Source: Tetrahymena thermophila SB210 (taxonomy: Eukaryota > Ciliophora > Oligohymenophorea > Hymenostomatida > Tetrahymenidae). Taken from it: a stretch of 64,000 bases of DNA. This document shows positions 6,714 to 53,970 of this stretch, piece by piece. The stretch's first letter is position 1, and every line of letters starts with the position of its first letter. Made by a program: the position numbers and the translations under genes. The DNA lies in contig NW_002476280.1 of assembly GCF_000189635.1 (NCBI RefSeq), positions 62,001 to 126,000 of the forward strand, given 5' to 3'. Under the pieces are notes generated by a model. The model searched no databases. It saw only the letters and a program-made list of their open reading frames with translations, and was not told the DNA's origin.

Positions 6714-6732
6714 TTAATTAATTAATTAATTT
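6714..6732. repeat. TTAA tetranucleotide run
   Basis: A tandem TTAA tract ends 39 bases upstream of the aspartyl protease start codon, within its likely promoter or 5' leader. Confidence 0.7.
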
Positions 6733-6771
6733 TTTACTTTAATTAAACTTTTTTGTAAAAAATTATCAAAT

Positions 6772-7920
6772 ATGAAATCGATTATTCTGATTTTAAGCTT
6801 TTTGTGCTGCGTTTTTAGCAGCAAGTTAATTTCTTTAAAACTTAATGAAATAAAATTTGATGAAAAAACAGATAATTAATACTTTGCATCTAATATGCCA
6901 CTTTAGCATAGATTAAGGCATTAATAAAGCTTTGAATAAGATAATCTTACTGAAATTGACCTTACTGATAACTATAAGTCTTACTATTATGTAAATCTGT
7001 AAATAGGATCACCTCCATAAAATTTTAAATTATCTGTTGATACAGGTTCTTCTGATTTATGGGTATAAAGTATAGATTGTAAAGAAAGTAGTTGTGTGAA
7101 GCATTAAAGATTTAATTATACAGCATCTAATACATTTAAAAAGACAGATAGAAATTTCTCAATTCACTATTTAGGAGGAGATGTTAAAGGTAATGTTAGT
7201 TAGGATAAACTGACTTTTGGAGGTTTCACAATTAACGACTACTGTTTTGGAATGGCATATCAGTCTAGTACTCTATTTTAATAAGTTTCATTTGATGGTA
7301 TTTTAGGACTAGCATTTACATCTATTTCAAGTATAAAATCTCCAACAGTAATTGATATGCTATATCAGGAAGGAAAAATTAGTGAGAATTCATTTTCTAT
7401 TTACCTTTCTTCTAAATAAAATACAAATGAATCAGAATTGATATTAGGGGGATTTAATCCTATTTATGCTGAAACAGAATTTAAATTTTATCCTATTTAT
7501 AAAGATTATCAATATGTCCTGAAAGGGAACTATTTAAAATTCAATAATTTAAAAATTGATGTAAGCACAGTAATTATTGATAGTGGAACAAGCACAATTT
7601 CTGGTGATGAAAATATATTAGGACCAATCGCATAAGCATTTCCTTCTACAATAGACTGTTACAACATTACAGGGTTTCCATCTATTTTCATCAATTTTGA
7701 TGGAGATGATTATGAACTTTTACCCGAAGACTACATTTATTCTTACACATACAAAGGAGTGTTAAATTGCAGATTGGGCATTAAATATTTTTAACTTAAA
7801 AACCCAGGCTAAATTATCCTTGGTGATACTTTTATGAGAAAGTATTATACATACTTCGACAAAACAAATAACAGAATAGGATTTGCAAAGGCTGCTTAAA
7901 AATAAACAGTTTAAATTTGA
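6772..7920 (+). CDS. Secreted/lysosomal pepsin-family aspartyl protease
   Basis: A single exon of 382 residues, open with TAA/TAG as Gln and ended by TGA at 7918. The first ~17 residues (MKSIILILSFLCCVFSS) are a clear signal peptide. Two catalytic motifs are intact: VDTGSSDLW with Asp90 and IDSGTST with Asp270, at normal spacing for a bilobed A1 protease. A Tyr in the flap position (HYLGGDVKG) and the C-terminal GDTFMRKYYTYFDKTNNRIGFAKA block match cathepsin D/pepsin enzymes. About 70 residues lie between the signal and the first catalytic motif, enough for a short propeptide. It should cleave proteins at acid pH in phagosomes or lysosomes, or outside the cell. Length is normal and nothing appears broken. 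Confidence 0.95.
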
Positions 7921-12200: not shown

Positions 12201-15200
12201 GATGTTCTAAGAATGGATCCTGATGAAGTAATTAGAGCGATTGAAGCTGATGAAAATAACGCTTATGATGTTGATAAGATAGTTGAAGAAATTTCAAATA
12301 TCAAGAAAAAAGAAGAGGATTTAAGAAGCAAAATTCCTTTAGAAATGCATGTTTCTTTCTTTTAAATATAAACTAATGAAATTTTAGGTTATTTGTGTGA
12401 GAAATATTATTAATTGTAAAAGAATTTTATTGAAATGATTGCAAAGAAAGCTAGAATGTAAACTCAAGCAATCACTAATACTTTTATACAAATTTAAAAA
12501 CGTATCAAAGAAATCCCATAGAATATAGAAGAGTTGACTGAGCTGAAAGAATATATGTTAAATGTACCTATGGAGTTAGAAAAGGTAAAAGTTGAAATGA
12601 ACAAGTGTTTTGAAATTTACAGCACCTTAGATGGCTTTGGATACAGGTTTTCTAAACTTGATTTAGATCAAAAGTGGACTATTTTTGGATCTCCTAAAGA
12701 CACCTTAGAACTTATTACAAAAAAGTAAATAAAATGAAATATTAAGCTATTTTTAATTTTTCATTATTATATTAATAAAAAAGGACTAAAGATTTGGAAA
12801 AAGATAAGGTTAAATTCTTAGATGAGATGAAGCTGCAATAGAATGATTTTAAAGACCAAGTAGATAACTTAGAAAGAACTATCTTGAATTTCAATTAGTA
12901 TAGCGATATAAATTAGCATGAAGAAGTTGCACAAACTGCTTTGAACATTATAAAGTAGATAAAGGAATTCCAAGAAGACTCCAGAAAGTTTAATAGCAGA
13001 GAAGGCTTGTTTGAAATGGAGTCTACAAATTATGAACAAATTTAAAATATGGAAAAGGAATTCTTGCCATATCAAAATATGTGGATAACAGGCAATTAGT
13101 GGTATAAAAACCAGGTTCAATGGTTACATGGTGAATGGGATACTTTGGATGCAATACAAGCTGAAAAATTTGTTGATGAAAGCATCTAGCTTCTTAATAA
13201 AGCTATCCGTAGTTTTAAAGATAGAAAAATAGATAATATTTGTTCAATTGCATAAAAAATCAAAGTAATAAATATCTTTTAATTTAAAATATCTAATACG
13301 AATTTAAATAGGCTGAAATAGAAGAGTTCAAGCCCAAAGTTCCTCTTATGGTAGGACTACGCTAAAAAGGTATGAAAGAAAGACATTGGCAAGATATATC
13401 AGCTAAAATTGGTTTCGAAGTAAAACCTACACCAGATTTTACATTTACAAAAGCTCTTGACTTAGGTTTAATGAAAATAGTTGATCATTGTGTTGATGTA
13501 GGAGAAAGAGCAGCAAAAGTAATTTATTTTTAAAACTATTTATTTTGAGATATAATTTTAATTGTTTTAACTAACTAAAGGAATTCTAAATAGAAAATAT
13601 GCTTTTTGACATGAAGAATATATGGGAAAATGTTAACTTCTAATTCAAAGAATATAAATAGAGTTATATTGTCAAAGGCTATGACGAAATTCAAATCATA
13701 TTAGATGATCATATTGTCAATTCATAAAATTTACAATTTTCACCTTTCAAGAAACCATTTGAACAAGAGATCATTGAGTGGAATGAGTAGCTTAAGATTA
13801 TGTCTGATGTTCTTGAAGAATGGGCAAAGTGTTAAGGATAATGGATGTAATCAAAGTTTTCATATAAAAATTTTTATTTATTATATAAACAATTAAATAA
13901 GGTATCTTTAGCCTATTTTTGATTCTCCTGATATTGCAAAGCAATTGCCAGCAGAAACCAAAAAATTCAAAACTGTTGATAGCACTTGGAAACACACTAT
14001 GAACCAAGCTAAGATGATAGTAAATGTAAGAAGAGTATGTATAGGTGAAGGTCTATTAGAAAGACTGTAAGAAGCAAATAAAAATCTTGAAATCATTTAA
14101 AAAGAATTAAATAATTATTTGGAGAAAAAAAGAGAAATATTTGCACGTTTCTACTTCTTGTCGAATGATGATTTGCTTGAAATTCTTTCTCAAACAAAAG
14201 AACCAACAGCTGTCTAACCTCATTTAAAAAAAGTATTCGAAAATATCAATGAGATAGAATTTGATGAAAACAAAAGAATTAAAGCTATGATGTCTGCAGA
14301 AAAAGAAAAAGTAGATTTCATTGAATTAGTTGATCCAAAAAATAAAAATGTTGAGAATTGGATGAATGAGCTAGAAAACATGATGTGCAAGTCTGTTAGA
14401 GCAGCACTTAATAATTCAGTTTTAGACTATCCTACAAAGAAAAGAACTGAATGGGTAATTAGTCATCCAGGTAAATAATTGTTTATGCTAAATTAAAAAT
14501 TTATATTTAAAATTTATGCCTTTATTGACTTAATATTTTTAATGATATTTAGGTTAATGTGTTCTTAATGGCTCTTAATTGGTTTGGACAAATTCGGTTG
14601 AGGTTGCATACAAAGATGGCGTAAAAGGAGTCAAATTATATTGGGACAAGCTAGATATCTACTTAAAAGATTTAGTAGAGTTAGTCAGATAAAAATTAAC
14701 AAAATAATAGATGGTAACCATAAATGCACTGATTGTGCTTGATGTCCATGCTAAGGATGTTGTCGAAAATTTATGGAGAACTAATGTTAATGATATTGCA
14801 GCTTTTGAATGGATTTCTCAACTGAGATATTATTGGGAGAATGATGATTGCTTTGTTAAATGCATTTAAACTTCATTCCCTTATGGTTATGAATACTTAG
14901 GAAATACACTTAGATTAGTTATAACTCCTCTTACTGATAAGTGTTATATGACATTAATGGGTGCTTTAAAACTAAATTTAGGTGGTGCTCCTGCTGGACC
15001 AGCAGGAACAGGTAAAACTGAATCAGTAAAAGATCTTGCTAAAGCCTTAGCAAAGTAATGTGTTGTTTTTAATTGTTCTGATAGTATGGACTACATTATG
15101 GTTGGCAAATTCTTTAAAGGTCTTGCTAGTGCAGGTGCTTGGTGTTGTTTTGATGAGTTTAATAGAATTAATATTGAAGTACTCTCTGTTATCGCTTAAC

Positions 15201-18200
15201 AACTACTTATCCTATTTGGTGAAAAAGCAAAAGGTACTCCAGCTGTTGAATTTGAAGGTTCAGTTATCAAACTTAAACCTACTTTTTGTGTCTTTATTAC
15301 TATGAATCCTGGTTATGCAGGTCGTACAGAACTTCCAGATAATTTAAAGGCTCTTTTCCGTGCCGTAGCGATGATGGTTCCAGATTATGCTATGATTGGA
15401 GAAATTATGCTTTACAGTTTTGGTTTTACAGAAGGTAACAATTACAATTAAAATAATTTAAATTATATTAACATCTATAAAAATATTCATTTCAATAAAA
15501 TATAATTTTAGTATAATTTACAAAACATTATAGTCAAATTTTTAATAAATTTATAAAAATTTTAAATGAATTTATCATAAAAAATTTATATTAATTTTAG
15601 GTAGAAAATTAGCAAAGAAAATGGTTGCCACATTTAAACTTTCATCAGAATAATTATCTTCATAGGATCATTATGATTATGGTATGAGAGCAGTTAGAAG
15701 TGTTATTAACGCAGCAGGTCTTTTGAAGGCAGCTAATCCAGATATGGATGAAGGTTAGCTTTTACTTCGTGCACTAAGAGATGTAAATGTTCCTAAGTTT
15801 TTAAAAGATGATCTTCCTTTGTTTGAAAATATTATGTCTGATCTTTTCCCTGGTGTCGAAAAACCTTAGGTAAATTATGGAAAGTTACTTAATTCGATTG
15901 ATCAAAAGTGTATTGAACAAGGATTATAACCTGTTCCCCCATTCATTGCTAAGATCATATAACTTTACGATACTATCTAAGTCCGTCATGGTCTTATGAT
16001 AGTAGGTCCTACTGGTGGTGGTAAAACTAGTAATTATAAGGTATTGCAAGCTGCTATGAGCCATCTACATGATTAAGGCTTTGCTAAAGTTAATGTGCAT
16101 ATTCTTAATCCAAAGAGTATAACTATGGGATAATTATATGGTTAATTTAATGAACAAACTCATGAATGGACTGATGGTATTCTCTTTACTTTTTTTAATC
16201 AATATTTTACAAAAAATTTAAATAAAAGGTATTCTCGCTTACAGAGTTAGAGAGTGCTGTAGAGATCAATCAGTAGATAAACACTGGGTTATGTTTGATG
16301 GTCCTGTTGATGCTATTTGGATTGAATCTATGAATACTGTTTTGGATGATAATAAAAAACTATGCCTCAATTCAGGTTAAATTTTAACTCTTACTCCTTA
16401 AATGACTATGATGTTTGAGGTAATTTAAATTATGGTTAAATAATAAAAATATATTAAAAATATGAATATAATTAATAGGTTGAGGATTTAACTGTTGCCA
16501 GTCCCGCTACTGTTAGTAGATGTGGTATGATATATATGGAACCTGATTCTTTAGGAGTGAAACCACTAATTGAATCATGGCTTAATACAATACCTTAAAA
16601 CCTTTATAAATTTGGTAAAATTGCAGAAAAACTAAAGAACCTATTCGATGCTTACATTGAAGATGCTTTATGGTTCTTACGTCGTAACATTGTAGAACCA
16701 GTAACTACTATGAATAATAATCTTTTGTAGTCATTATGCCGTTTATTGATGTGCTTTTTCAGAAATTATGAAGAAACAGAAGTTAAAAAAATATAAGAAG
16801 AAGAATTATAAGGAGTTGAAAGGTCTTTAGAATCTTTATTTATATTTTGTATGATCTGGTCACTTGGGTGTACTGGTGAATATGAGGGGAGAATTAAATT
16901 TGATCATTTTTTAAGAGAAAAAGTTTAATAAATAAGTCCAAATGTTATTTTACCAGAAGAAGGAACAGTATATGAATATGAATTTGATTTATCTATGAAA
17001 TAGTTTACACGCTGGAGTGAGAGGAATAAAGAATTTTAGATTGACTAAAAAGCTCAATATCATGAAATTATGATTCCTACCTAAGATTCTACTAGAAATT
17101 CCTTCATAATTAAACTCCTCCTCTAAAATTCTTATCACATTTTAACTCCTGGTCCTACAGGTAAACACTTGATTATTTTCTATTAAATTTTGAGATTTTG
17201 CTAATTTTTAAAAAATAAAAAAATTGAATAAAAGGTACTGGTAAGTCTTTGAACATATCTAATTTATTAACATCTGGATTAAGTGAGAGCTTCTAATCTA
17301 TATCAATTACTTTTTCAGCATAAACAAGTGCTAATTAGACTTAGGATACAATAGATGGTAAAATGGATAAAAGAAGAAAAGGTGTTTTTGGTCCTCCTAT
17401 TGGTAAAAAGTTCATTATATTCGTTGACGATCTCAATATGCCTAAGAAAGAAGAGTATGGAGCACAACCTCCTATCGAACTTATTAGGTAGTATCTTGAT
17501 CATAAAGGTATTTAAAATAATAATTGATATATTTAAAACTTTAATTCTATTTTTTTTAGTTAAAAAAAACTTTCTAAATTATCTTCAAAAAAGTTGTAAA
17601 AAAACAAAATATGATAAAAATGCTTAATTTTTATCTTTATCATATGAATTTTTAATTTAAGATTTATTTAAATGAAAATTTATAGGTTGGTACAATAGAA
17701 GGGACTTGCAATTTATGAAAATGGAAGATGTGATTATTTTAGCTGCTATGGGACCTCCTGGTGGTGGTAGAACTTTTATTACTAACAGGGTAGTCCGTCA
17801 TTTTAACATTTTAGGATATACCGAACTTGATTAGAACACCATCTAAGAAATATTCAAGAATTTAGTTTCATTCTTCTTAAAAAGATTTTCTGAAGATATC
17901 AAATAGAATATTAGCAATGTTGTTAAAACTGCCTTGGACGTATATAATTAAGTTAAAATAGATCTTCTTCCTACTCCTTCTAAGTCACATTATACATTCA
18001 ATCTACGTGATATTTGGAAAGTATTTTAGGGAGTTTGCTCGATTACACCTAAGTTCTGCACAGATTTAAAGTCATTACTAAGATTATTCTATCATGAAAA
18101 TATGAGAGTATTCCATGATAGATTAACAACAGACTCAGATAGAAAATATTTGCATAAGCTTTTAGTTTAATAATTCCAAGGTTACCACATAAAAGAAGAA

Positions 18201-21200
18201 GATGTAATATATTAAAGTTTTAGAAAATAAAGTATTTAATTATGATATTTAATAACAGGTAATAGACAATGAACGTATTATTTATGGTGACTTTTTGTCT
18301 GGAAGAGAAGTAGATATAAGAAATTATTAGCAAGTTACTGATTTGAATTCTTTATTGGATAAAATGGACAATTTCCAAGAAGAATACAATAATGATAGCT
18401 CATTCGTTTTTGGAGGCTAGAAAAAGCCTATGAAATTAGTTATGTTCTTAGATGCTTGTGAACATATTGCAAGGATAGCACGTATTATAAGATAGCCAAA
18501 TGGTAATGCTCTCATTTTGGGTGTTGGTGGTTCAGGAAGATAATCATTAAGCAGAATGGCAACTTTCATTACTAACTATAAGATTTTCTAAATAGAAGTT
18601 ATCAAAAATTACAATATGAGAAGCTGGAGAGATGATGTCAAAAAAGTTCTTCTCTATGCAGGTATAGAAAACAAGCCTATTTCTTTCTTGTTTTGTGATA
18701 CTTAGATTATTAAAGAATAAATGATGGAGGATATAAATAATATCCTTAACTCTGGTGATGTAACAGGAATCTACCAAGACAAAGTAATTAAGAAAATTAA
18801 AATTTTCACACGTTATATAATATTATGTTTAATTAGGATTAAGAAGAAATTATGGCAGCATGCAAGGCTGATTGTTTGAAGAAGCAATTGCCTCCAACTA
18901 AAATGAACATTTTTACTATTTATTTGAGTAGAGTAAGAAAGAATATTCATTTAATTATTGCTATGTCACCTCTCGGAAGTGCTTTTACAACAAGACTTCG
19001 TATGTTCCCTTCTTTGGTTAATTGTTGTACAATTGATTGGTTCACAGAGTGGCCAGAAGTAATTTTAATAAATTTTAACATTTAAAGATCTAAACGTTTT
19101 AATAATCTAAATTTAGGAAGCTTTAATTAATGTTGGCAAAGGCTAATTATAAGATTATGAAGAAGACCTCCAATTAGGTTAAAATCTTGGTACAGTTGTG
19201 GTAAATATAATTTATTTCAATAGAAATACAGAGAATATGTTTAAAATACTTTTTTAAAATAAATAAATCAGGAAATGTTTAAAATCATTCACAAATCTGT
19301 TGAAAAGGCTTCAAATAAATTTTATGAATAATTACGTAGATACAATTATGTTACTCCTACTAGTTATTTAGAGTTACTTTCAACTTTTAGAAACGTCCTT
19401 TCTTTCAAAAAGAAAGAGGTTCAAAAGAGTATTTAGAGACTCAAGTCTGGTCTTGATAAGCTGGAGGAAGCTAACAAATCAGTTGAAGAAATGAGAATAG
19501 TACTTAAAGATATGCAACCTTAACTTGAGAAAGCTTCTGCTGAGACAGAGAAAATGATGGAAAAGCTATCAGTAGATAAAGCAGATGCTGATGCTACCTA
19601 AAAAGTTGTTGCTGTAGAAGAAGCATAAGCTACTTAATAAGTAAAAGATTAATTAATTTCCTTACAAATATTTTGATTTATTTTAATAAACTATTAGGCT
19701 GCAGAAGCTACAAAACTTGCAGAAGAAGCAGAAGCAGCTGTTGCTGATGCTAATAGATAATTAGCAGAGACATTAGCTGAAGTACAAAAACTTAAAAAGG
19801 AGCACTTAGTTGAAATTAAATCCCTTGGTTCTCCACCTACTGCAGTCAAAGTCACATTAGGTGGTGTTGTGATATTAAATTAGGAAGCTATTAAATAAAA
19901 TGGTGGTCAAATTATTATGAGTAATGTTGAAGGTTAGGTAGGAGGTAAGAAGGAAGAAAACTATTTTGAAACAGCTAAAAGATATTTACTTAGTGATACT
20001 AAATAGTTGTTAGATCTTTTGATGACTTATGATAAGGATGCAATCACTGGTGCTACAATTAAGAAATTAGAGGAAAAAATATTAAATCAGCCTGAATTTA
20101 CTTTTAATGCTGTCGAAAGATGCTCTTTTGCCACTAAATTCTTGTATATGTGGGTAAAGGCAATGGTTGATTATTATAAAGTGTATACTGAAACTAAGCC
20201 ATTAAGAGAAAAATTGATTGAAATGAGGAGAATTGTCGATGAAAAAATGGGATAATTGAGAATAAAGAAAGAAGAACTTGCAAAGATCAATGCTAAGATA
20301 TAGCACTTGGAAGAAATGTTCTCATAAAAAATGAAATAAAAGGAAGAGCTTACTCGCAAAATAGAGGAGTGCGAAATTAAATTAGAAAGAGCTAAAAAAT
20401 TAACTGATGGTTTGTCAGAAGAATCAGTTAGATGGGCCTAGGATATTTAAGCGTTAAATAATAAAGCAAATTTAGTGCCAGCTCATTCAATTATAGCTGC
20501 CGGTATGATAGCATATAGTGGCCCATTCACATCTAACTTTAGGTAAGATCTTGAATAAGATTGGGTGTTAAATCTTGCATAGCTTGAACTAGAGCACGAC
20601 ACTAAAATCACAATGAGATCTTTCTTGGGTGAGCCAGTTAAGATCTAATAATGGAACATTAGTGGTCTACCCAAGGATGATACTTCAATCGAAAATGGTA
20701 TTATTATTGAATAGGGTAGAAGATGGCCTCTTATGATTGATCCTTAAACATAGGCAAATAAGTATATCAAAAATATGGGTAAAGACCATTTAGAAGGTAA
20801 AAAGACATTTTTATTTTATTTTTTATAGATCAAATATATTTTTAATTAAAATAAAGGTATCGAAATTGTCAAAGCCAATGAAGCAACAATTATGAAGACT
20901 ATGGAATTATCTGTACAATTTGGAAGATGGGTGCTTATTGAGAATGTAGGCACTGATCTTGATCCTTCTCTTGAGCCTATTTTGCAATAGTAGGTTGTTA
21001 AGCAAGGAAGTGGCTATGTCATAGTTATTGGTGATAAACCATTAAACTATTCTGATCAATTTAAACTTTTCCTCACTACTACTATGCCTAATCCTCATTA
21101 TCCACCTGAAACATTTGTAAAAGTTAGTATAATTAACTTTGCAATTACACCAAGTGGTTTGGAAGAATAAATGTTAGCTCAGATAGTTGCATTAGAAAAT

Positions 21201-24200
21201 CCTACTCTCCAGTAAAAGAAAACTGAAATAGTCAAAAAGAATGCTGAAGATTAGAGGGCTTTAATAAAAATAGAAGACTCTATCCTTGAAAGCTTATCAG
21301 GTACTGGAGAAATTTCAGAAATATTAATGGATGAAACATTGATAAATCAACTCTAAACTTCTAAAAAATTCGCTGCTGAAATCAATTAGAGAGTAAAAGA
21401 CTCAAAAATAACAGAAGCACAAATAGATGAGGCAAGAGAAAGCTATAGAGCAGTTGCTTTCAGAGCTTCTATACTCTTCTTCTGCATAGTCGATTTAGCA
21501 TCAATTGATCCTATGTATTTTCATTTTATATTCCTAAAATAAATTTAATAATTATTTACTTTTGTAGGTATCAGTATTCATTGTAATGGTTTACTAATTT
21601 ATTCATAATGGGTGTAGAAAAAGCTCCAGAGTCAAATGAATTAGAATAGCGCTTAGAAAATTTAAATAACTACTTTACTTATTCCTTATATGAAAATGTT
21701 TGTAGGTCGCTTTTTGAAAAGCATAAATTAATTTTCTCTTTCATGCTTGCTGTCAAAATTCTTCAAGGCCGTAATGAGATGGATGAAGTAGAATGGCGTT
21801 ATTTCTTAGCAGGTCCCTCAGGTGAAGTGCATATACCTTAAAATCCAACTACTTGGATTTCTGAAAATTCTTGGCCAGATATCTACAGATAATTCTATGG
21901 AATGAACCAATTAAGCAGTTTTAGAGGCATTAATGATCACCTTATTCAAAAATCTGATAGCTGGAAAAGTATTTTTGATTCTACAAATGCATAAGAAGAA
22001 CCTTTGCCTGAAGAGTGGAATGAAAACTTAAACAGCTTCTAAAAGCTAATAGTTCTTAAATCAATACGTCCAGACAAAGTAAAAAAAATATAATTAGCTT
22101 TTATCAAATATTAATAAATTTTTATTAGGTTGTATAAGGTGTTTAAAATTGGATTTCAGAAAAAATTGGTAGAGAATTTATTATTGTTCCTACATTTGAT
22201 CTAAGCAAGTGCTATAAAGATTCGAATGTAGTCAGTCCTTTAATTTTCGTACTTTCTTAAGGTTCAGATCCTATTGCAGATTTCCTAAAGTTTGCAGAAG
22301 ATATGGAAATGACCAAAAAGTATGACTCAATATCTTTAGGTTAAGGCTAAGGTCCTAAAGCAGAGAGATTGATAAAAGAATGTGCTTAAAGGGGTTATTG
22401 GGCACTTTTATAAAATTGTCACTTGGCAATTTCATGGATGCCTGAACTAGAAAGAATTTGTGAAGGCTTGAATGAAAATATGCATCAAGATTTCAGGTAA
22501 AAATAAATTTAAAATCTATTAAAAATAATATATAATTTTTGAAATTAATAGACTATGGTTAACAAGTATGCCTAGTGGTTCATTCCCCATATCAGTACTT
22601 TAAAATGGTATTAAAATAACTATGGAACCTCCTTAAGGTTTAAGAGCTAATTTATTAAGAACTTACAAAAATCTTACAGAACAAGAATTAGTTGATTGCC
22701 AAAAACCATAGGAATTCAAAAAATTGCTATTTGGTTTCTGTCTTTTCCATGCTATTATTTAAGACAGAAGAAAGTTTGGTGCTATTGGCTGGAATATACC
22801 ATATGAATTTACAAATGAAGATTTGAATGTATGTAAAAAGTAATTAAAAATGCTATTGGATGAGTATCAAAAAATTCCTTATAAAGTAATTAATTTCCTT
22901 GGTGCTGAAATCAATTACGGAGGAAGAGTTACAGATGATAAAGATGTTAGATTAATCAAAAGTATATTGAAGCTCTACATTAATGCAGAAGTAAATAGAA
23001 TTTTAATTACTTACTTATTTTCTAAAAGGATTTAAATTTTTTTTATAATTATTCAAATTTTTTCGAAACATATTCTTTCATTTCAAGATAAAGTTTCTTG
23101 CAATTTTTAAAATTTTTTTAATTGAATTATTGAAGTCGTTAGGCGATAAATATTAGTATTCTGAATCTGGTATTTATTACTCCATCCCTGCAGGTAAACT
23201 TGAAGATTATATTAAATACATAGAGGGATTACCCCTTAATCCTTCTCCAGAAGCATTCGGATTGCATGATAATGCTGAAATAACAAATGCTTAGAATGAA
23301 ACAATGAATTTATTGGCCACTATTCTTTCCTGTCAACCAAGAAGTTCTACAGGTCATGGTAAATCTAGAGAAGAAATAATTGAAGATATAGCAGTAATGG
23401 TAGAAACAAAAACTCCTGAGCTATTCGATATTGAAATCATTTAAAGATCATATCCTACTTTATACGAAGAATCTATGAATACAGTTTTAGTTTAAGAACT
23501 GATCAGATACAATCGTTTACTTAAAGTTTTGAAAGAGTCTTTAATAAATTTGAAAAAAGGTCTTAAGGGATTGGTTGTACTATCAGAAGAATTAGAGAAA
23601 TTATCTAACTCTCTCTATGATAATTAAGTAATTAAAATTTTATTCTTCATTTATTCAAATTCAAATATAGAAAGAGGTTTTTTGCCTCAAAAATTTTATT
23701 TTATAATAAAAAAAATTTAAATTATTAGTTCATTAAAAACAGAATTTTTTTTAGAAAAATAATTCATTAAATTTTACTTTATATTTTTAAACAATATCAT
23801 TTATTGTTTAATATTAATTTTTATTCTTAATTTATAAACTATATTTATAAAAAAAAAAACACATCAGTAAATATAAGGATTAAAATTTGTGTTTGAAATG
23901 TTTATACTATTTTTTATGAAATTAATTCAAAATTTTGATAATAAATTTTAATAAACTTACAAAAAGGTACCATAACTTTGGGCAGATAAAGGGTTTTTAT
24001 CTTTAAAACCTCTATCTTCTTGGACTTAAGATTTAAATGATCGTATTTCATTCTTGTAAAATTGGATAGATAATGGTACTCCAAAAGTATTTTGGATTTC
24101 AGGTAAAAACAATTAAATTGAGTTTATTTATTAAAATAAAATTTAGATAGGATGTCTAAATTGTTTATAATTATTTATTATTACCGTTATTCATTTATTA

Positions 24201-24710
24201 ATAGCTATTAAATATTTTTAAATTTCATGTAATTTATTTAAAAAATTAAAAATAGGATTCTTCTTCCCTTAAGCTTTTATTACTGGAATGACTTAAAATT
24301 ATGCTAGAAAAAAAGTTATAGCAATTGATCAATTGTAATATGAGTATTAAATATTAGATACTTTAACTCACACAGATATCACAGAAAAACCAGAAGATGG
24401 TGTTTATGTATATGGTATATTTTTGGAAGGTGCTAGCTGGAATTACAAAAAACATATAATAGACTAGCCTATACCAAAAGAACTGTTTTCTGATTTGCCT
24501 TTAATGCATATCATACCTACTGCAGAGAAAGAGCAAGGATCAAAAATAATATATTAATGTCCTATGTATAAAGTAGTTTCAAGAAGAGGTACTTTAAGTA
24601 CAACAGGACATAGTACTAACTTTGTTATGCCTATAGAACTTCCAACTAAGGAAAAAGAAGACATATGGATTAGAGCAGGTGTGGCTGCATTCCTTTCTTT
24701 AAGATATTGA
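9265..24710 (+). CDS. Axonemal dynein heavy chain (inner-arm, single-headed type)
   Basis: Twenty-seven exons give 12750 coding bases and 4249 residues, a normal full-length heavy chain. The N-terminal half is the tail and linker. The motor follows with four nucleotide loops: AAA1 GPAGTGKT at residues 1572-1579 (followed by CFDEFNRI), AAA2 GPTGGGKT from 1853, AAA3 GPTGTGKS from 2198, and AAA4 GVGGSGRQS from 2552. The stalk's first coiled coil begins near residue 2780, the microtubule-binding tip lies around 2905-3010 (Pro pair near 2909), and the second coil runs to about 3090. AAA5, AAA6 and the long C-terminal domain end at the TGA at 24708. It drives ATP-dependent sliding of outer-doublet microtubules in cilia. 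N-terminal and tail sequences look like the single-headed inner-arm group (possibly DNAH1-like), but I cannot fix the subtype. All four P-loops are intact, so it looks functional. Confidence 0.96.
9265..24710 (+). other. Exon map of the dynein heavy chain gene
   Basis: Exons: 9265-9354, 9530-10027, 10226-10596, 10873-11293, 11358-12724, 12784-13264, 13312-13518, 13581-13846, 13902-14470, 14553-15434, 15601-16176, 16229-16419, 16479-17160, 17235-17507, 17686-18203, 18259-18783, 18837-19058, 19117-19200, 19272-19640, 19698-20796, 20857-21514, 21568-22078, 22129-22496, 22552-22990, 23136-23627, 23967-24102, 24256-24710. All 26 introns are GT...AG, 47 to 339 bases long. Each junction preserves frame and restores conserved dynein sequence. 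For example, the intron 17161-17234 splits a glycine codon inside the AAA3 P-loop. The first junction (9354/9530) is least certain because the N-terminus is poorly conserved. Confidence 0.88.
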
Positions 24711-42293: not shown

Positions 42294-45200
42294 ATGGACG
42301 ATACAATTTCTTCTTTTGGAACATTTGCTTCTCCAGTCAAGCCAAATTCTAAATTAAATGATTTCAAGATTCTATGTAAATTAGGCGAAGGATCATTTTC
42401 AACTGTGTTTAAAGTACTCCGTTTAGTAGATAACAAGATTTATGCCATGAAGAAGGTTTAAATGAGCAGATTAAATGAAAAGGAAAAAGGAAATTCTTTA
42501 AATGAAATAAGAATTTTAGCTTCAATAAAGTGCGATCATATTATAGAATACAGAGACAGCTTTTTTGATGATTAATCAGACACACTTTGTATAGTTATGG
42601 AGTATGCAGGTAGTGGTGATTTACTTCAAAAATTAAAAGAGTATAAGCTAATAAATGAAAAATTACTTGAGGATGGATAAAATGAAACAAGTGAGAGCCA
42701 GGTAGAACAAGATTCATCTCCAAAAGAAGAAAGTGATAAAAGTTCTCGTTCTTAAGAGAAAAACAAGCGCATATACAACAAACTCAATTAATAAAATGAA
42801 AGTATTAAATCAAAGAAATCATCAATATAAGAAAACTCAAGTAAGTCTGTGGTGTAAGATAAGCAATAATAGATGGTTTTTATGGATGAAGAGTTGATTT
42901 GGGATTATTTTATTCAATGTTTGAAAGGTTTAAAGTGCTTGCATGACTTGAAAATCGTACATCGTGATTTAAAATGTGCAAATATATTTATAGGTGATAA
43001 TAATATTATTAAAATTGGAGATCTAAATGTATCCAAAGTTACAAGAAGGCCAGAGTAAATGGCTAAAACGCAAACAGGTACTCCTTATTATACTGCACCT
43101 GAAGTGTGGAAAGGGTTGTCTTATAACTATAAAAGCGATGTTTGGTCTTTGGGATGTATAATATATGAGCTTTCCGCTTAAAAGCATCCTTTTAAAGGAA
43201 ATACAATTGAAGGGCTATTTACTAATATAATGAAAGGATAGTATGAAAGAATACCAAGTTTTTATTCTGAAGAATTAGCTTTTGTTATATCTTAATGTTT
43301 GCTTTAGAATCCCAAGCTGAGACCAGGATGCGATCAGCTTTTAAAATTGCCTGCATTTGCTTCAAGACTGTAAAAATATGAAGAAAAGTATAGGTAGTAT
43401 TTGCAAAATCATAACAAGTAAAAAATTCATTCTAACTTCCTTAATGTGACATCGTAAAACCATCTTGAGTTTACCCCCTAAAGAGTATAAAAGACCAACA
43501 CTGAAGGACCCCATCTTATCGATACTATTAATATGCCTTCTAACTTAAAATAGTTGTCTGCTCTCTTACCTAAATCTAACTATGAAGATACCCCAATTTA
43601 ACTTCCTTCAATAAGTGAATTTGATGAAAATATTGTTAATAACAATAATCATTTGCACAATAAAAGCAACTTCATGAAATTAAGAGCTTCTGTTCAAAAA
43701 GTTTCTGAATTTGATTAGCTTGAGAAGATATCTTCTGCAGATTCTTCATCATCATCTTCCTCACCATCAGCAGCTACAAACAGAATAACCAAGAATTTCA
43801 AGGATAATAATGAACTGTAAAATGATCAATTAAAGACCTCGTAGATGCACCAAGATAATATATTTTAAGCTTTATTGGACCTTCAACCAGCTGATATTCT
43901 TAATCAAAAATTAACTTTAACTTAGTAATAAAAGGAAACTACAAAATTAACAAATAAAAAGATGAGTTAGCTCTAACCTTATCATGATTTAGTCAATGAT
44001 TCTCCAATACGTTTTAATCTTCAAAAGGTATAGATGGAAAACAAAAATTAAGAGCAGAAAAGTGATGAAAAAAAAGAAAATAGCGAAAGAAAGAATATAA
44101 CTCTATAGAAAATAGATTTCATTAATGAGCAAAAGAATCACAGTGGCTTGAGTTAAAATAATAATACTAAAAATACAATAAGTACAAATGCCCAGACTTT
44201 CAAAAATAATGATGCAAGCAATAAAAAGTAAAGCTACCAAACATCATCAAATAAAAATGAAGAAGGCATAACCTCAAGAGGCTCTCCTAATATTTCTTTA
44301 GTTGAAAACATTAGCATTTAAGAAAAAAACCCAACTTTAAATTCTTAAAATAATAGCTTAGAAGTCATTAGCAACTACATGAAGAAGTTAAAGATGCGTC
44401 CTCAAAGCTCTGCAATTAGAAATTGTATTACAGTTGAGTGCTAAAACAACTCTAGCAAATGCAGTAGTATTTTAAATGTAGCTCCTCATCCTTCTCAACA
44501 AAATTTAGAAATAAATTAATAGTAAACTCTAATTACAGAAGAGACATGCCCAAAATTCATTGTTCCTAATGTTAGATATTCCCAAAATTCTAGTAATATT
44601 ATCTAAACATAGAGCACTTTTGGGGAAGAGAGTTTTCTCAATAAAAAGCTAAAAAACGTAAATGGCTATTACAATGATGTGAGAAATTATCGTATTCGCT
44701 ATGCTAGATAAGGATCTAAAGATAATAGGATATAAGCTAGTAATATAAATTCTAATGTAAATTCCTCTTTCAATAATTATAATAATAATAACAGTTCATT
44801 TAACAATAACTACAATAGTAATGTAAATAATTCATTTAATAACTATAACTACAATAAAAAAATATTAAAATCTGAGGAAGACTCTACAAGCTATTCACCA
44901 TCGGCTTTAGCAAGAGGATTTATTGTTCCTTATAGTGCAATTTAGCATGATAAAAATTCTAGAATTAGCACTATTATTTCTTCATCTTCTTAATAACCCC
45001 GTAGACTTCCTTCTTCTGGTAGAAATAACCAGAAAAAGAGCTATTCACCTATAAATAAAATAACTTAATTCACTTAATTAATGAAAAGATATTTACCTAA
45101 AGGAATGCTCAAAAACTGTCCAGTTTCAAATCAGGAAAGAAATAATTCTAACAATTCTTCTATCAACTAAAATAATCACAGAAGTCCTATAGTATATTAA

Positions 45201-45827
45201 AAGACCCCTAATTCAGCTAAATATCCTTCTCATAAAATAGCAGCTGCAGCAGCTTTTAATACAAGTTTAGTTTCATAGCTAAATAATAGCTCCATAAACA
45301 GTAACAACTACTCATTTAATAACCAAAATATATCTCCTGTCATCACTTCTAATAAAGAAAATGTAAATACAGCAAATATTCTTGACAACAGCTTTGCTTT
45401 GATTCGTCATTAAGCAAGATAAAATATCTATAAAAATAATAATTAGTAAAATGGTGGAGTTAGAGCTGTTTAATACGAAAAAAATTTTTTTAATAACAAC
45501 AACAATAACAATCATTTGAATTGTAACACAAATCATATCTAAATAGTTAAAAAACTAGGAAACGTAAATAATGTTTTAAACTCTCATACTTACAACATAA
45601 ATCGCTCATCTCCACCTAAAAAAGCCTAATAAAAAGATTCATAGCATAGAAAAAATATTTTCTATCACCCAAATTATATAAATTGTTTAAATTAAAATAT
45701 TAATAGCTCTATTGTGTAAAAAGTGGCTTATGTGCAAAATCCAAAAAGTTTAAACTCTAAAATTAGCACTTCCAACAACCAAAGCAGCTCTCAAGAAAGA
45801 AAATAAATTAAATAAATCTTGAGGTGA
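42294..45827 (+). CDS. NEK-like Ser/Thr protein kinase with long Asn-rich tail
   Basis: One exon, 1177 residues, no intron. The kinase domain spans about residues 22-362: glycine loop LGEGSFSTV (30-38), catalytic Lys53 in [15 protein letters not shown] with Asp225, then DLNVSK with Asp243 in place of DFG, a hallmark of NIMA-related kinases, and the TQTGTPYY activation and P+1 segment followed by APEVW. A hydrophilic insertion of ~70 residues (122-193, Ser/Lys/Gln/Glu) sits between the hinge and helix E. All catalytic residues are present, so it should phosphorylate proteins on Ser/Thr. The remaining ~810 residues are Asn/Ser/Gln-rich and largely disordered, with poly-Asn and poly-Ser runs. 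NEKs commonly act at basal bodies, in ciliary length control and in mitosis; a link to cilia here is inference. The start is the first ATG, eight residues before a conserved-looking SFGTF. Confidence 0.93.
44740..44855 (+). repeat. AAT/AAC codon repeat in the kinase tail
   Basis: In-frame repeats encode Asn, Ser and Phe in the pattern NNSFNNYN. They lie inside the disordered tail of the NEK-like kinase and are prone to length change. Confidence 0.75.
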
Positions 45828-46767: not shown

Positions 46768-48213
46768 TCAATCGTCAACTGATATTCTTAATTCTATGTT
46801 GGCACGATTATCAGAAAGCCTTGAGAACTAAAAGTAATTGTATAGTAACTCAACTTTTGTACTTGGACCCATGCTTAATCCTACTCCAATACCAGCACTA
46901 GCACGGAAATGATGTTTTAAATGCTCAGCAATATCGTTTTTGGTAAAAGATTTTAAGGGATAACCTCCATATCCGTTTCTTACTCTATAAAAGTATCCTG
47001 CACTCGCATGATAGAATGGGATAACTCCAGATTTTGAAGTACCTGGGAAATTATATAAATTTAATTTTATCGATGATTTTAACTATAAATTAAGATTATC
47101 TTTTAAAAAGTTAGAGATATTGTGTGGAGGTTGCTACTGATTAATTTATTAATCACCTTAAGGTATATAGTCTACATTAATGTCATTTACTCCTCTAATT
47201 GTGCTCAATTAAAAGCATTCATTAAGATGCAGTTTATCATTATTTAAAGTTTTCACTAAACCTAGGTTTCCACTGTATTCTATATTTACATGCTTAAACA
47301 TATCTGATACTTTTTTGAGAGTTTTGAGCTTCCAATAAGCTTTGTAGTTTGCTTCTGTTTTAAGAAATACTACATCACTTAAAAGAGGAAGTCCAAACTC
47401 AAGAGAGTAATTCAAAGATGATCCTTTGTGGACATTAGATCCCATTTTTATTGTTGAGAAAGCAGTTGTTGCATAGCGGATGGAATGCTTTGTGGTAGGA
47501 AGAAAATCTTCGAGATTTCTGTATAAAGGCAAAGTGACATAATTTCTACGATAAGCAGATTCAAAACTGAGGCTGTATTTTTCTTATTCATTCTTATTAT
47601 CGATATTAGTGTAAATAATTTAGCATGAGTCCTTAGTTTCAGAGCAAGATTAATCTAACAAAGTTGAAGAATGAGAAATCTAAGCCAAAAAATTGTCTTC
47701 TGCTTTACTTTTTAAGAAGTTGTAAGGAACATTCCATTAAATATTATAATAGCTTCTTTTAGATTTATTTAATGCCTTATTGTATTCAAACGTTAGCTTA
47801 TCAAATAAGCCTAATACATTTCTGAATCCTAATTTTGTAGTCATGGAAGCTTGACCAAATCTATCAAATTAGTGAGAAATGTTAGCAAAATAGAAAGAAG
47901 AAGGCATAAAACGATATTATACAAGGACAGAGTCTTTCTTAGAACCAGGAAGAAGCTCTACCTCAACTTACTTATACATTCCACTCTACTCAAAACGCTT
48001 TAAGCTATTTATAATATTTTAAAATAAATGTAGCATAGTAGGACTCTGCTTAACTAAATCAAGAGTAATTTCATCAATCATTTTAGGTGAAACTCTTTTA
48101 TCATTCAAATAATTTACTTCAACCTCATCAATTTTTGTAAAGGCTTTCATATTTTTTCTAATCATTTCACTTTCAAAAATTTTAACATTTTTTTCTAAAT
48201 CTTCATAATTCAT
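46768..48213 (-). CDS. Sam50/Omp85-type mitochondrial outer-membrane barrel
   Basis: An uninterrupted minus-strand frame of 481 residues, from ATG at 48213 to TGA at 46768. Residues ~28-100 resemble a POTRA domain (IINSLKRFEQSGMYKQVEVELLPG region). From ~110 on, alternating strands fit the bacterial surface antigen barrel, with FGLPLLSDVVFLKTEA, a GVIPFYHASAGYFYRVRNG loop and a late SAGIGVGLSMGPSTKVELLY strand pair typical of Sam50. Sam50 is the core of the SAM complex and inserts beta-barrel proteins into the mitochondrial outer membrane. There is no signal peptide, as expected for a protein imported from the cytosol. Divergence is high, so bacterial-type Omp85 kin cannot be fully excluded, but the genetic code and gene context make it a host nuclear gene. 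Confidence 0.85.
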
Positions 48214-48750: not shown

Positions 48751-49032
48751 TCATTTATCTAAAAGGACTCTGTATCCATACCAATTTTATGGTGCTTTGA
48801 AATTAGATTTTTGCATATATTTTATTAATGTTTATATAGGTCCGTCTAAGAAAGTATCATCAGCTCCAGATCTGTAAAGGGTATCTTTTAAAATCATCTG
48901 ATATTTAAAAAGTAAGTAATGTAGTTATAGTTAATTTTGAAATAAAAATATAAATAAACAATAACAAAGTAGTAGGTAGGTAAGTAAATTATTAAAATAA
49001 CAAGTAAATAATTAAGCTAAAAAGTAAATTAT

Positions 49033-49064
<32 letters not shown>

Positions 49065-52000
49065 CAAATAATTAAGTACCTGAGCTTCTTCAAATAAAAC
49101 TTTTGCAGCCTCCCAATCTCCATTTAAATATTCTTGCAGACCATCATGGTATGTATTTCTAAATTCCTAATAAAATAAATTTTGATTAAAAAATGTTAAT
49201 TTGCAATAAAATTACATCTGTATAATTTTTTCTCATTGTAGCTATATCAACATCTGAGTCTATGATTTAACAAATATTAGCTTAACCTTACAAAATTTTT
49301 TTATATCTATCAGTTCTACGTTTTCTAGAAATGAACTTGAGGACTTTTTTATTTACTTTATTATCCTATAACCTCTTTTATACAAATTTGTTTTCTGTTA
49401 GTAGGGTAGGATCTACATCACAAGTATACAAATCCATTGGCTATTTAGATCCTTTGACAGTAACTCTATCTACATGTCTAAGGGCGCTTTGCATTTTATT
49501 GCTTAAAAGTCTATAGAGAGCACCAGACAATAAAAAATATAAACCATATTATTTGGTAGCATTTTCTAAACGAGAAGCCATATTGACATTTGGACTGAGA
49601 TAGGAAGCATCGATTTTAAAGTTAGAACCTATGGCACCCTATTAAATAAGTTTTTTAACAATTTTTTTAATATGTTAATGACAGTTAAATAATTTGTTAA
49701 TATGAATTATAATAATTCATTTATTTTACCTCAATACCCCATCCAACATGAAGTCCGAACCCAAGACGAAAAGTAAAATTTTTCATTACTTTTTAAAGTG
49801 GCTTCAAATGTTGTTACTAATTTTTAATTAATAATTTATTATGATATTTAGAATATTTTGATTTACTTTAAAGCTCGAAGTAAGTGAGAGCAATCTTGCA
49901 TTAGCAATAGCTTTTAGGAAAGCAACAACTGGTAAATCAGACAAATTCTAGACGAGTGGTAAATTTTTTAACTTAACTTCATCACTGCTATCTAAAAATA
50001 GCTGTGATTCATCTTCTGTATACTTCCAAACTAACAAAAAACAATCACCTAAATTTTTATTAATTGCCCCGTGAAAGCTATCACAACAAACATGAACTAG
50101 CTCAGCAACTTCGTTTGCAAATAACATAACTTTTTCTTAAAGTATTTCTGTTGCATCTGCAAAATTTTTGATTGAGCAAAAGCCAAATATGGCCATAATT
50201 TTCTTACCTGGAATCATAGGATCTATGCTTCCACCTTTTAGATGTACAATTAAATATTTTTATTAAAAAATTAATAAAAATAAATTAAATCTTACCAATT
50301 TGCATATTCTTGGTAATAATTTTAGAGCCTGCTTCACCAAAACCTATAGCCAAAAGAGCACCAATTTTCATAATTGTGGACTCCAACAAATATGTTTCAT
50401 CACTCTTCTATTCATTTAACTCACTGAGTTTTACTTTATTTTTCTTAAGTTCTTATTCTGCCATAGCCTTTTTAGAAGTAAAAATAAAAAATAAATTAAT
50501 TAAAATAGTTAGAGATTTTAATTTACTTTTTCTTCCGAAATTTTAGCTGCATCCAACGGGTTATCAGCGATCAACTTAATAGTTTCAAGCATTCTTTCTA
50601 TGGGTGAAACAACTAACTTATTAATATCTTTTACAAATGTAATAGTAGAGTATGCTAATATAGCTAAAATAAAGGTAGTTTATCCTATAGAGAGATATGA
50701 ACTTAAATCCTAATCTATCTTGGTGATATACTAAGTTTCAAAATAAGCAAATCCTGTTTATTAGTTTGAATTTGAGCTGTAAGTTGTATATTCGTAGTCT
50801 CTTAAGTCATGATAATTTGTATTTACAGTATAATTAGCATTTGGAAAATAAGTAGAATTTTCACTTATTATTGATTTAAGAGGATATCTATGTACATTAT
50901 CTGTAGCATCATACTCAATACCCATCAATACTTAAACATATAAATCATCTATTGCTTTTTATCTGCTAACATTATAATCGCTAACTACATAGTTTAAGTA
51001 AGTTACGAATCCATAGTCTGGGTCCTTAAATTTTAATAAAATTAAAATAAGCAAATTTATTTATTTATTTTCACTTTTTTTAAAATGATTAACAAAAAAT
51101 GTTAGCTCAATATCTTTGATTATTTCTTTAAAAATGCAAAAACATTAAAAAAAATAAAATATTTTATATCATATTTAATCTAATCAATTAATTTATCAAT
51201 AAATTATGAATTTGTTATTTTAAGCTATGTAGCATTATAGAAAAAATGAATATATTCTTATGACAAATATATTAAAATTTAAGAGAAAATAAAGAATTAA
51301 ATGTATATTACGACGTAAAAAGAGTTATCAAAGAAAGGAATGGTAATGACAAGGACAAAAATCAGTATAATTACTCTAGTTGTTGTAATATCAGCTAATT
51401 GCTTTCCTATCTTGCTTTCTTAATCCTTTATTCATTAATTAATTTATTAAAAAAATTATTTTAAGTAAATAAAAAAAGAATAAATTACTTTTGGTTTATT
51501 TTAGGATTATTATTATTTGCTTGAACCTTATAGAGGAGTATCTTCTTCATCAAACCCAAAGGAAGCATGAGAAGTAATAGACATCTTAGACTTTTGATTG
51601 CTATACAAATCAGAAGCTCTGTTTTTATAAACTTCATATGCCGGATTCAAGAACGAAATTTACTTCTAGTTTTATATATTAATTTTAGATGCTGTAGCTG
51701 TAATAGGCTCTTTGTTGTTTTTAGCAATATTATAAAAGGCACTTTATTTAACACTATCTCTTTTAAGGCCTTATAGTTATTGATTTTATTAAGTATCATG
51801 AGAATTAGCTGAATTATGACTGACATGGGTCATTATAGATTTTCTCTCTTAGGCTTATGATTTTTATTTATAAGGGCTGTTCATAGTTACCACTTGCTAA
51901 TTTTAGATAGTAAATGAATTCTTTTCAGAAAAATTTGCAGAATCAAAATTTAATCCACTCCCATAAATTTTAGATTTTTTAGCTAAATTAATCTACTGTT

Positions 52001-53970
52001 AACTACTCACACAATTATTTAAAAACGATTACAACGAGTTTCTATGCTGAGATGAATCTTTCATGTCAAAAGATTTTCTTCTGTAAAAATTTAACAATAC
52101 AGAGGTGCTTTTTTTATTTATTAAATTAATAATTTTGATAAAATTAATGAGTCAGTAAGTATGTTGAAAATTTAAGAATGATCAAAATAACAAGTTAAAG
52201 CAATATTTAATTTTGAAATTTTATAAGATGTTGAAGAACTTCTAATTGTGAAATTAATTAGATGTTGCTGATAGTTAATAAATTTAGATCAAAATTTGAT
52301 AAAAAAATTTAATAAAAATATTACTTATTATTATTCGTTTTTTCAAATGAATTCATTCTCTTTGGTATGCTTTATTCCTAAAGTTGCTGATTATTTTCTT
52401 TTATTTTTAGCTAAAAATCAGATTGATTCAGTCCAAAAGATTAATTTTATTTATCAATAGCAATATCAAGATTTTGTTGAGACTAAGGATTACTAGCTTT
52501 ACCATCTTTCACAGATCCTTCAGATTTATTTTCATCTTATTCTTTTACATCATACTTTTGATTTAGCTCTTCGTATGCTTGTTAGTAAAGCTTTTATATT
52601 TTAGTTAATCTCAATAATCTAATGAATCTAACTATTTTTAGTGCTCTTGTTGCAATTCTGGATACTCTGCTAGCTCTATAGTTTAAATAAAATAAAGGCT
52701 TAATTTTTTCTAATCATAATATTAATTGCTTACTTAAGCACAGTCACATTAGAATTGCTGATAGTGAAACCAAATAACGCCTTTGATAAGAAATCAATAT
52801 CAAAAAAAAGAGAGATAGTTGATAGGAGATCCATCCAAAATATGAATGATAAAAAATAACCTTTCCTGCACATTGACTGCAAAACAATTTCAAAAAAAAA
52901 GAAAAGCAAAACAATTAATTCAGTAACTTAAAATCCCATATCTCCTTACTATTTTTATAAATTAATACTTATTAATTTCGACTAAAATAAGCATTTGGAT
53001 TCATCAAAGAACAAATAAAAAAAGGTTTGATTACTGCTGTTGTAGAAACTTGCCTTATATCCTCACTATACAATGAAAATATTGTAAAAAGAGTCATCAT
53101 ATGCTGATAGTATTTATTATCAAGTAAGATAAGTCCTTTTTCCTTATTTTTAATTATTATTTTAATGTTAGTCATTTAATTTTTTAACCAATTAATTGCC
53201 TAAACTTGCCTTTATTACAAGAGAGTCAATTAATTAATTAATAAATCAATTAATATTGGCATATCAATAAAGCATTTTAATTTACTATTATTGAAATTAA
53301 TTTTGGGTTTTATTCTTAAAAAAATCAATTAAATTGATGATGATGGATTAAATTTAAAAGCCATTTGATATAAAATGTTACCTAAAATTACTAATATTTA
53401 ACTCTTAGCCTATATTTTAAAGTGTTTTTCTCCATATCTTCATTCTCTTGTATCTTTTAATTCAGAAGACTAATTAGGTTTTAAGAGTTTATCTATTTTG
53501 AATTTCTTTTTCCTTATACATCCTAGGCACTTTTTTACCCATTTTAATTTTTATCATTCTACTTTATATTTTTTCCAGTGTTATCTATTGCAAGATTGCT
53601 CTATCCTGGATTCTTTTTTTTTTCTAGTTCTTCCTTTAATTTCTACTTTTTTTCAAGCAAGTTTTTTTGTTTACTTAATGCTTTTAAACTTAAACCCTAA
53701 GGAGTATTTGAAGCAGCTTAGGTAAATCCATGAGTCTATGCTTTTTCTATAGTTTGATTTCTCGCTTTTTATTGTTATTTGAAAATAATTTATTGTAAAA
53801 CATAAGTAATATTGATGTATCAATAAATAAATTCATTTTTAATGGCACAAAAAAAATATACATTAATAAGTTTGAGAGCGCTGCTAAGAATTCTCATCCC
53901 GTTCTTTTGAAAAGGATTCTTTTAAAACTATATTAATTTAATTTGCTTAGGTAATGCTTGAATTTAGCAT
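48751..53970 (-). CDS. Class III nucleotide cyclase fused to a voltage-sensor-like module
   Basis: Fourteen exons give 1247 residues. The N-terminus (~1-150) is Gln/Lys rich. Hydrophobic helices follow at ~239-255 and ~261-281 (GYFLSFIFWMDLLSTIS), then an S4-like helix at 302-327 with Arg/Lys every third residue (R312, K315, R318, R321, R324, K327). I see no S5-pore-S6. After a Ser/Gln-rich stretch come two membrane helices (~634-650 and ~766-786) flanking a ~115-residue loop with NST and NYT sites. The cyclase domain starts near 880. Metal-A Asp is replaced by Ser898 (FGFCSIKNF), while Gly940-Asp941 (KNLGD), Asn and Arg of NVNMASRLE, and the VKG lysine remain. The family makes cAMP or cGMP; activity here is uncertain. 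Ciliates are known for ion-channel-type adenylyl cyclases. The start is at 53970, with an upstream in-frame TGA. Confidence 0.9.
48751..53970 (-). other. Exon map of the cyclase gene
   Basis: In transcript order: 53862-53970, 53392-53764, 53035-53209, 52734-52981, 52325-52675, 51489-52080, 51312-51425, 50527-51024, 50296-50467, 49867-50234, 49730-49816, 49216-49638, 49080-49166, 48751-48897. They total 3744 bases and all junctions are GT...AG in frame. The 53-base intron 52982-53034 matters: unspliced, the reading frame loses the hydrophobic helix before the GYFLSF motif; spliced, it yields TELIVLLFFFFEIVL. The first three exons are set by frame and splice sites alone and are less sure than the catalytic exons. 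Confidence 0.8.
49033..49064. repeat. TAAG microsatellite in the last cyclase intron
   Basis: Eight perfect TAAG units lie within the intron 48898-49079, with further TAGG/TAAG fragments around 48970-49030. It is a simple repeat, likely variable in length between strains. Confidence 0.85.

Follow-up and report, generated by a model that had tools for sequence, protein, structure and literature searches.

The alveolate voltage-sensor adenylyl cyclases, among them Plasmodium ACalpha and the Paramecium and Tetrahymena enzymes, combine a channel-like N-terminal part with six transmembrane (TM) helices, a GXG motif after TM6 and a class III cyclase domain on the C-terminal side, as outlined in sections of PMC10651576, PMC3283738, PMC5746546 and PMC12414865; two of these (PMC10651576, PMC12414865) cite Weber 2004 and Schultz 1992. 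According to PMC5746546, no canonical residue is missing from Plasmodium ACalpha, and its expression in Dictyostelium and Xenopus gave cyclase activity but no confirmed channel activity. Here we describe a gene in a 64,000-nucleotide stretch of the Tetrahymena thermophila SB210 genome (contig NW_002476280.1, positions 62,001 to 126,000; the window) that has this organisation but, unlike these cyclases, lacks the first of the two metal-binding Asp residues and a nearby Thr.

Two described systems divide a class III active site between unequal halves. In the chytrid rhodopsin guanylyl cyclase dimer NeoR/RGC1, the metals come from one subunit and the Asn/Arg and base contacts from the other: NeoR lacks the NxxxR motif and supplies the Asp, RGC1 supplies the base residues and NxxxR, and removal of RGC1's own Asp (D379A) raised activity ninefold, according to the parts of PMC12264004 available. 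In the P4-ATPase guanylyl cyclases of ciliates and apicomplexans, including Toxoplasma, one domain gives the metals and the other the Asn/Arg, and the latter can lose its metal Asp, as excerpts of PMC6592433 and PMC5746546 describe. Both halves of these enzymes lie on one chain, with no S4 sensor described in those excerpts.

A profile search identifies a class III cyclase domain in the window gene (PF00211; E 4.2e-8, 33.4 bits, cut-off 21.9), which is 47–63% identical to those of five sister genes in the same genome (62% to the sister L021 over the aligned domain). Its best-scoring solved relatives in a profile search (PDB 5mbh and others, E 3.5e-16) are structures that we take to be of bPAC, presumably from Beggiatoa. 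bPAC is a soluble homodimer with a BLUF light sensor and two complete sites. Alignment with it locates the metal and IGD motifs of the window gene, its base-contacting positions (Lys and Thr/Ser) and its Asn. We scored eight positions on a six-gene alignment (first metal Asp, DIRNFT Thr, base Lys, second metal Asp, base Ser, transition-state Asn and Arg, and phosphate Lys), with catalytic roles that we assume from class III structures. Six are kept in the window gene: both base residues, the second Asp, the Asn and Arg of SPNVNMASR, and the phosphate Lys. The first metal position is Ser, encoded by TCA within GFCSIKNF, where all five sisters have GAT, a change that needs three base substitutions. 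The Thr five residues further on, present in 5/5 sisters, is Ala in the window gene only. The first Asp is also found in the outgroup introduced below and in five bPAC alignments. The window gene carries Ser and Asp where a catalytically autonomous class III cyclase has two metal-binding Asp residues. Class III cyclases that lose a metal Asp are generally left with little or no activity.

An original prediction, made from the letters of the window, had described a minus-strand class III cyclase with a stop at its lower end, an Asp-to-Ser change at metal site A, and an intact second Asp, transition-state Asn/Arg and phosphate-binding Lys; Pfam, the stop at 48751 and the six-gene alignment bear out each of these. 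A sequencing error at the Ser codon was part of one of its refuting cases. A single-base error is rejected by the three base changes from GAT, the codon of all five sisters, and by the second altered catalytic residue nearby, and with three changes a sequencing error of any kind is very unlikely. Whether Ser is shared among cyclases of this architecture, which the prediction had left to a comparison of ciliates, can be answered for the paralogues and one distant protist: all of these have Asp, against Ser in the window gene. The prediction had overlooked the Thr-to-Ala change and the mirror-image sister described next. A guanylyl cyclase identity is not supported, as the two base-binding residues, Lys and Ser, line up with the Lys and Thr of bPAC.

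Searches of the genome (101 Mb, 445 contigs) with the window catalytic domain (12 matches), the L025 catalytic domain and C-terminus (20 matches) and the L024 voltage sensor (13 matches) all fall on the same six loci, namely the window gene, L021 (contig C442), L022 and L025 (C221), and L023 and L024 (C167, separated by about 16 kb). Scoring in these searches was confined to the best candidates, and the family has at least six genes. None of the 50 matches listed in a six-frame PF00211 scan of the genome lies at the six loci; at the level of single exons the scan therefore fails to pick up this family, and it could miss more distant members too. All six gene models share the sensor, TM5, TM6, a GFGEAG segment, the catalytic domain and a C-terminal module. 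The window gene itself has an S1–S4 domain, a GXG after TM6 and a class III domain with motifs of the GFCDIRNF / KNIGD / SPNVN type, and by all signs the six genes belong to the known alveolate voltage-sensor adenylyl cyclases, as judged from these features rather than from alignment with a named member.

All five sisters have both metal Asp residues and a related build, and L021–L024 retain all eight scored positions. L025 (C221:395500-405000, minus strand) keeps both metal Asp residues and replaces the transition-state Asn with Ser (TCA, against AAT or AAC in 5/5 other genes), again three base changes away. The S2 Glu, too, is replaced in L025, by Gln, and its Asn/Arg half is less conserved. 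A search of bacterial genome contigs for relatives returned one locus only, L070 (JAIYDP010000293.1:17055-20778), a distant protist-like copy with Asp, Thr, Asn and Arg; a search of viral contigs for relatives returned none. L070 is a voltage-sensor cyclase in exon-like pieces on a contig binned as a Verrucomicrobiaceae metagenome-assembled genome, and this looks like a mis-binned eukaryotic (protist) contig. Because the outgroup L070 has both residues, the losses of the window gene's Asp and the L025 Asn are derived.

We then counted departures, defined as columns where the tested gene differs while the remaining five agree, in a metal half (columns 45–104) and an Asn/Arg half (columns 171–260). 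The window gene departs at 2/25 such columns before the domain, 9/37 in the metal half, 6/7 in the middle and 2/43 in the Asn/Arg half, and its two halves differ (p 0.02). The corresponding counts for L025 are 2/25, 1/29, 1/2 and 8/49, and the other four genes show 0–1 departures in the metal half and 0–3 in the Asn/Arg half. A post hoc two-by-two Fisher test of the window gene against L025 gives p 0.005. Over all columns, L025 differs from its nearest sister L022 at 7/60 positions in the metal half and 31/90 in the Asn/Arg half (p 0.002). In a tree of the six genes and L070, L022+L025 and L023+L024 are supported pairs, in contrast to the other two inner forks, and the window gene has a branch of 0.95 (median 0.17). 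Its nonsynonymous and synonymous divergence from L021 (dN 0.38; dS 1.21, near saturation) indicates a gene constrained as a whole.

A control within the same genome was provided by 14 PF00211 regions holding two cyclase-domain stretches (C36 and C171 left out), with residues counted by eye. We take these loci to be P4-ATPase guanylyl cyclases with both stretches in one gene, as judged from the cyclase stretches alone. Domain 1 has N..R in 13/13 loci where it was matched and lacks the second Asp in 14/14 (Lys, once Asn), whereas in domain 2 the first Asp is present in 14/14 and IGD in 12/12 matched, and N..R is absent from 12/12 matched. Five spurious-looking pattern matches were left out of these counts (domain-1 IGD, one each in L029 and L032; domain-2 first Asp, one in L029 and two in L033). 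Domain 1 has lost its first Asp in 2 of the 13 loci where it is visible, to Leu in L030 (C39) and to Glu in L036 (C261). In Tetrahymena, then, a domain that seemingly lends only Asn/Arg can lose the first Asp, and the Asn/Arg-type domains of these two loci resemble the window gene in this respect.

The original prediction had offered a pseudo-enzyme, a heterodimer subunit supplying one half-site, and an enzyme with altered metal use. The half-site option is favoured over the other two, because both catalytic losses lie on the metal side, the Asn/Arg side is kept and the sister L025 has lost the opposite side. We give an even chance to the window gene encoding the Asn/Arg donor of a mixed (heterodimeric) voltage-sensor adenylyl cyclase, and Tetrahymena voltage-sensor cyclases may work as mixed pairs rather than identical twins. 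The features expected of such a donor are found: an intact Asn/Arg side, a partly lost metal side, and candidate partner genes of related build with an intact metal side. The scored residues that such a donor contributes to its partner's site, all present in the window gene, are the base Lys and Ser, the Asn, the Arg and the phosphate Lys. Since the residues of each site in class III dimers come from opposite subunits, either gene alone is predicted to form a dead homodimer and yet to be able to supply half a site in a mixed dimer; for the window protein, the predicted homodimer is inactive or nearly so. The window subunit would dimerise with a sister having both metal Asp residues. One working site at the shared interface would then combine the partner's metals with the window subunit's Asn/Arg, and the other site, with the window subunit's Ser/Asp, would be dead and possibly regulatory. 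S4 movement in either subunit would be relayed by TM5/TM6 and the stalk to the single working site, with voltage coupling and ATP as substrate both presumed.

The proposed dimer resembles NeoR/RGC1 in that sensor-cyclase subunits on separate genes would share one active site through complementary residue loss; the window gene resembles a natural form of the RGC1 D379A change, and L025 resembles NeoR. That system differs in having a light sensor and GTP rather than a voltage sensor and probably ATP, in that RGC1 still has its Asp, and in that its mixed dimer has been demonstrated, while ours is proposed. As for the partner, the NPL..ET part of the stalk spans 32 residues in the window gene, 34 in L021, L023 and L024, 17 in L022 and 15 in L025. 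Stalk length points to an L021/L023/L024-type subunit as the likeliest partner of the window gene and to L022 as that of L025. Residue complementarity points instead to L025 as the best fit to the window gene, but stalk length does not.

Several observations weigh against a mixed dimer. The metal-side loss of the window gene is partial, as the second Asp is kept. Over all columns it diverges evenly from L021 (18/60 in the metal half, 27/90 in the Asn/Arg half, p 1.0), so that its asymmetry rests on invariant columns only and a faster metal half is not seen over all columns; it also departs at nearly all invariant columns of the middle stretch. The corresponding contrast between halves in L025 is not significant on invariant columns (p 0.14), and the Fisher comparison of the two genes weakens with a single boundary at column 110 or 130 (p 0.066) or at 150 (p 0.060); at 170 it gives p 0.002. 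Given two independent losses, we estimate that they would fall on opposite sides by chance about half the time. The long branch of the window gene would also suit a protein that is decaying or changing fast. Nor can activity be fully predicted from motifs, since NeoR with NxxxR put back is still inactive alone, and RGC2 alone is inactive despite having the motif (parts of PMC12264004). Dimer formation and activity of the window protein are themselves predictions from sequence.

The loss of the first Asp and the Thr, together with the long branch, would also suit a pseudo-enzyme regulator whose residues take part in no working site, and which dimerises with its sisters to lower or tune their activity or serves only as a voltage-responsive scaffold. 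In a scaffold, however, the catalytic residues would be expected to drift, and the window gene retains its Asn, Arg, base Lys and Ser, second Asp and phosphate Lys; we regard this explanation as rather unlikely. The same retained set, the second Asp with five other scored residues, and the recognition of the domain by Pfam would be consistent with an autonomous enzyme of altered metal use, in which Ser and the second Asp suffice for a working homodimer, for example with Mn. Against this stand the first Asp in 5/5 sisters, the outgroup and five bPAC alignments, and the additional loss of Thr, and we consider it improbable. Recent decay or an assembly artefact could be suspected from the long branch and from reliance on one assembly only, but the Ser codon requires three base changes, the C-terminus is conserved, and GT..AG introns connect in frame the exons that the sisters share, which leaves this explanation very improbable indeed.

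Within the mixed-dimer proposal, a sub-case that we consider doubtful is that the window gene and L025 form an obligate pair, in which each subunit would be dead by itself and completed by the other. The two losses are complementary and derived, and relative to L022 the metal half of L025 is well kept and its Asn/Arg half less so. Yet the stalks of the two proteins are 17 residues apart, each lying within 2 of its own subfamily, and either subunit could equally pair with a canonical sister.

The N-terminal part of the window gene matches Pfam Ion_trans (E 2.5e-8) over profile positions 2–108 of 241, that is, S1–S4 only. Its S4 (ASRVSRIATRALKIVRFIRLLRLTKI) has eight basic residues, mostly at every third position, and aligns with those of the five sisters, in agreement with the S4 helix originally predicted. 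Hydropathy exceeds the threshold at S2, S3, TM5 and TM6; S1 and S4 were placed by alignment. The TM5–TM6 loop of 116 residues lacks a GYG/GFG selectivity filter, as it does in all six gene models, and a K+ channel pore is therefore rejected for the window gene and its sisters. The predicted lack of a pore segment accordingly holds for this loop. It does not extend to the region after TM6, where GFGEAG is present in 6/6 genes (AIGFGEAG in the window gene); a GXG-type motif at this place is taken as the possible pore motif of alveolate voltage-sensor cyclases in the part of PMC3283738 consulted.

The gene was read with the ciliate code (TAA/TAG=Q) from reading frames and a codon-usage dynamic-programming exon model, and runs from an S1–S4 sensor through a long linker, TM5, loop, TM6, stalk and class III domain to a short C-terminal module (Table 1). 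The model has 15 exons, of which the first are doubtful and lie partly upstream of 53970; its start, at 54258, lies in a doubtful exon of four codons, and the ATG near 53970 is not used. Because of the uncertainty in these first exons, the Ser and second Asp are residues 914 and 957 in this model rather than the 898 and 941 originally given. In-frame TGA is ruled out by the way the model is built, so that the lack of TGA is no evidence of intactness; the gene is instead judged intact because its sister-conserved exons join in frame at GT..AG introns.

Table 1 Features of the voltage-sensor cyclase gene (window coordinates).
Feature	Position	Strand	Basis
Voltage-sensor cyclase gene, 15 exons modelled	48751..53970	-	Exon model, reading frames, sister genes
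S1, voltage-sensor domain	53047..53103	-	Six-gene alignment; below hydropathy threshold
S2, Glu kept (FFFFEIVL)	52871..52930	-	Hydropathy, six-gene alignment
S3, Asp kept (FWMDLLSTISL)	52796..52861	-	Hydropathy, six-gene alignment
S4, eight basic residues	52597..52674	-	Six-gene alignment; Pfam Ion_trans E 2.5e-8 over S1–S4
TM5	51330..51380	-	Hydropathy
TM5–TM6 loop with intron, no GYG/GFG	50704..51329	-	Motif check
TM6	50632..50691	-	Hydropathy
Stalk, TM6 towards cyclase domain	50366..50631	-	Position from gene model
GFGEAG segment just before cyclase domain, the family's 'GXG after TMD6'	50303..50365	-	Alignment; PMC3283738 (in part)
Class III cyclase catalytic domain, three coding exons	49411..50202	-	PF00211; sister identity
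Ser codon TCA at first metal Asp	50173..50175	-	Codon comparison with five sisters
Ala codon at Thr of DIRNFT	50158..50160	-	Thr in 5/5 sisters
Base-binding Lys, kept	50056..50058	-	Alignment
Second metal Asp, kept	50044..50046	-	Alignment
Base-position Ser, kept; aligned with Thr of bPAC	49603..49605	-	Alignment
Transition-state Asn, kept (Ser in sister L025)	49582..49584	-	Alignment
Transition-state Arg, kept	49570..49572	-	Alignment
Phosphate-binding Lys, kept	49453..49455	-	Alignment
C-terminal module conserved in family, TPR-like by eye	48754..49166	-	Alignment

The C-terminal module of the window gene has no match to Pfam TPR. Adjoining the cyclase on the minus strand is a 481-residue open reading frame (46768–48213), SAM50/Omp85 beta-barrel-like by eye, with no Pfam match at 0.001. 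Elsewhere in the window, all on the plus strand, are an aspartyl protease (6613–7920; PF00026, E 1.1e-70), a dynein heavy chain gene (11000–24700; AAA_9 and stalk domains matched by Pfam in 19869–21902, wider extent by eye) and a long protein kinase gene (42294–45827; Pkinase E 1.2e-56) with a tail of about 800 residues that is low-complexity by eye.

The voltage-sensor cyclase architecture is already known from the alveolate family, and the split into half-site losses would be the new part. No description of half-site loss in ciliate adenylyl cyclases was seen among the literature matches listed, judged by title and the start of the abstract and with most subscription papers outside coverage, and the GFCDIRNF and DIRNFT motifs were not found in the literature texts searched. 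It is an old question how hyperpolarisation of ciliates leads to cyclic AMP (cAMP), and the candidate link lies in the voltage-sensor cyclases (PMC10651576 and PMC12414865, in part). A more speculative extension, to which we attach a low probability, is that half-site subunits are dedicated and encoded on separate genes, with L025 the metal donor and the window gene the Asn/Arg donor. Part of the voltage-controlled cAMP would then arise only from mixed dimers, and the subunit mix would set the voltage response of a coincidence enzyme with two sensors and one active site. If some ciliate members do work only as mixed dimers, single-subunit tests would fail to detect their activity. For the mirror-image pair of genes, the prediction is of two proteins that are dead alone and are each rescued by a defined partner.

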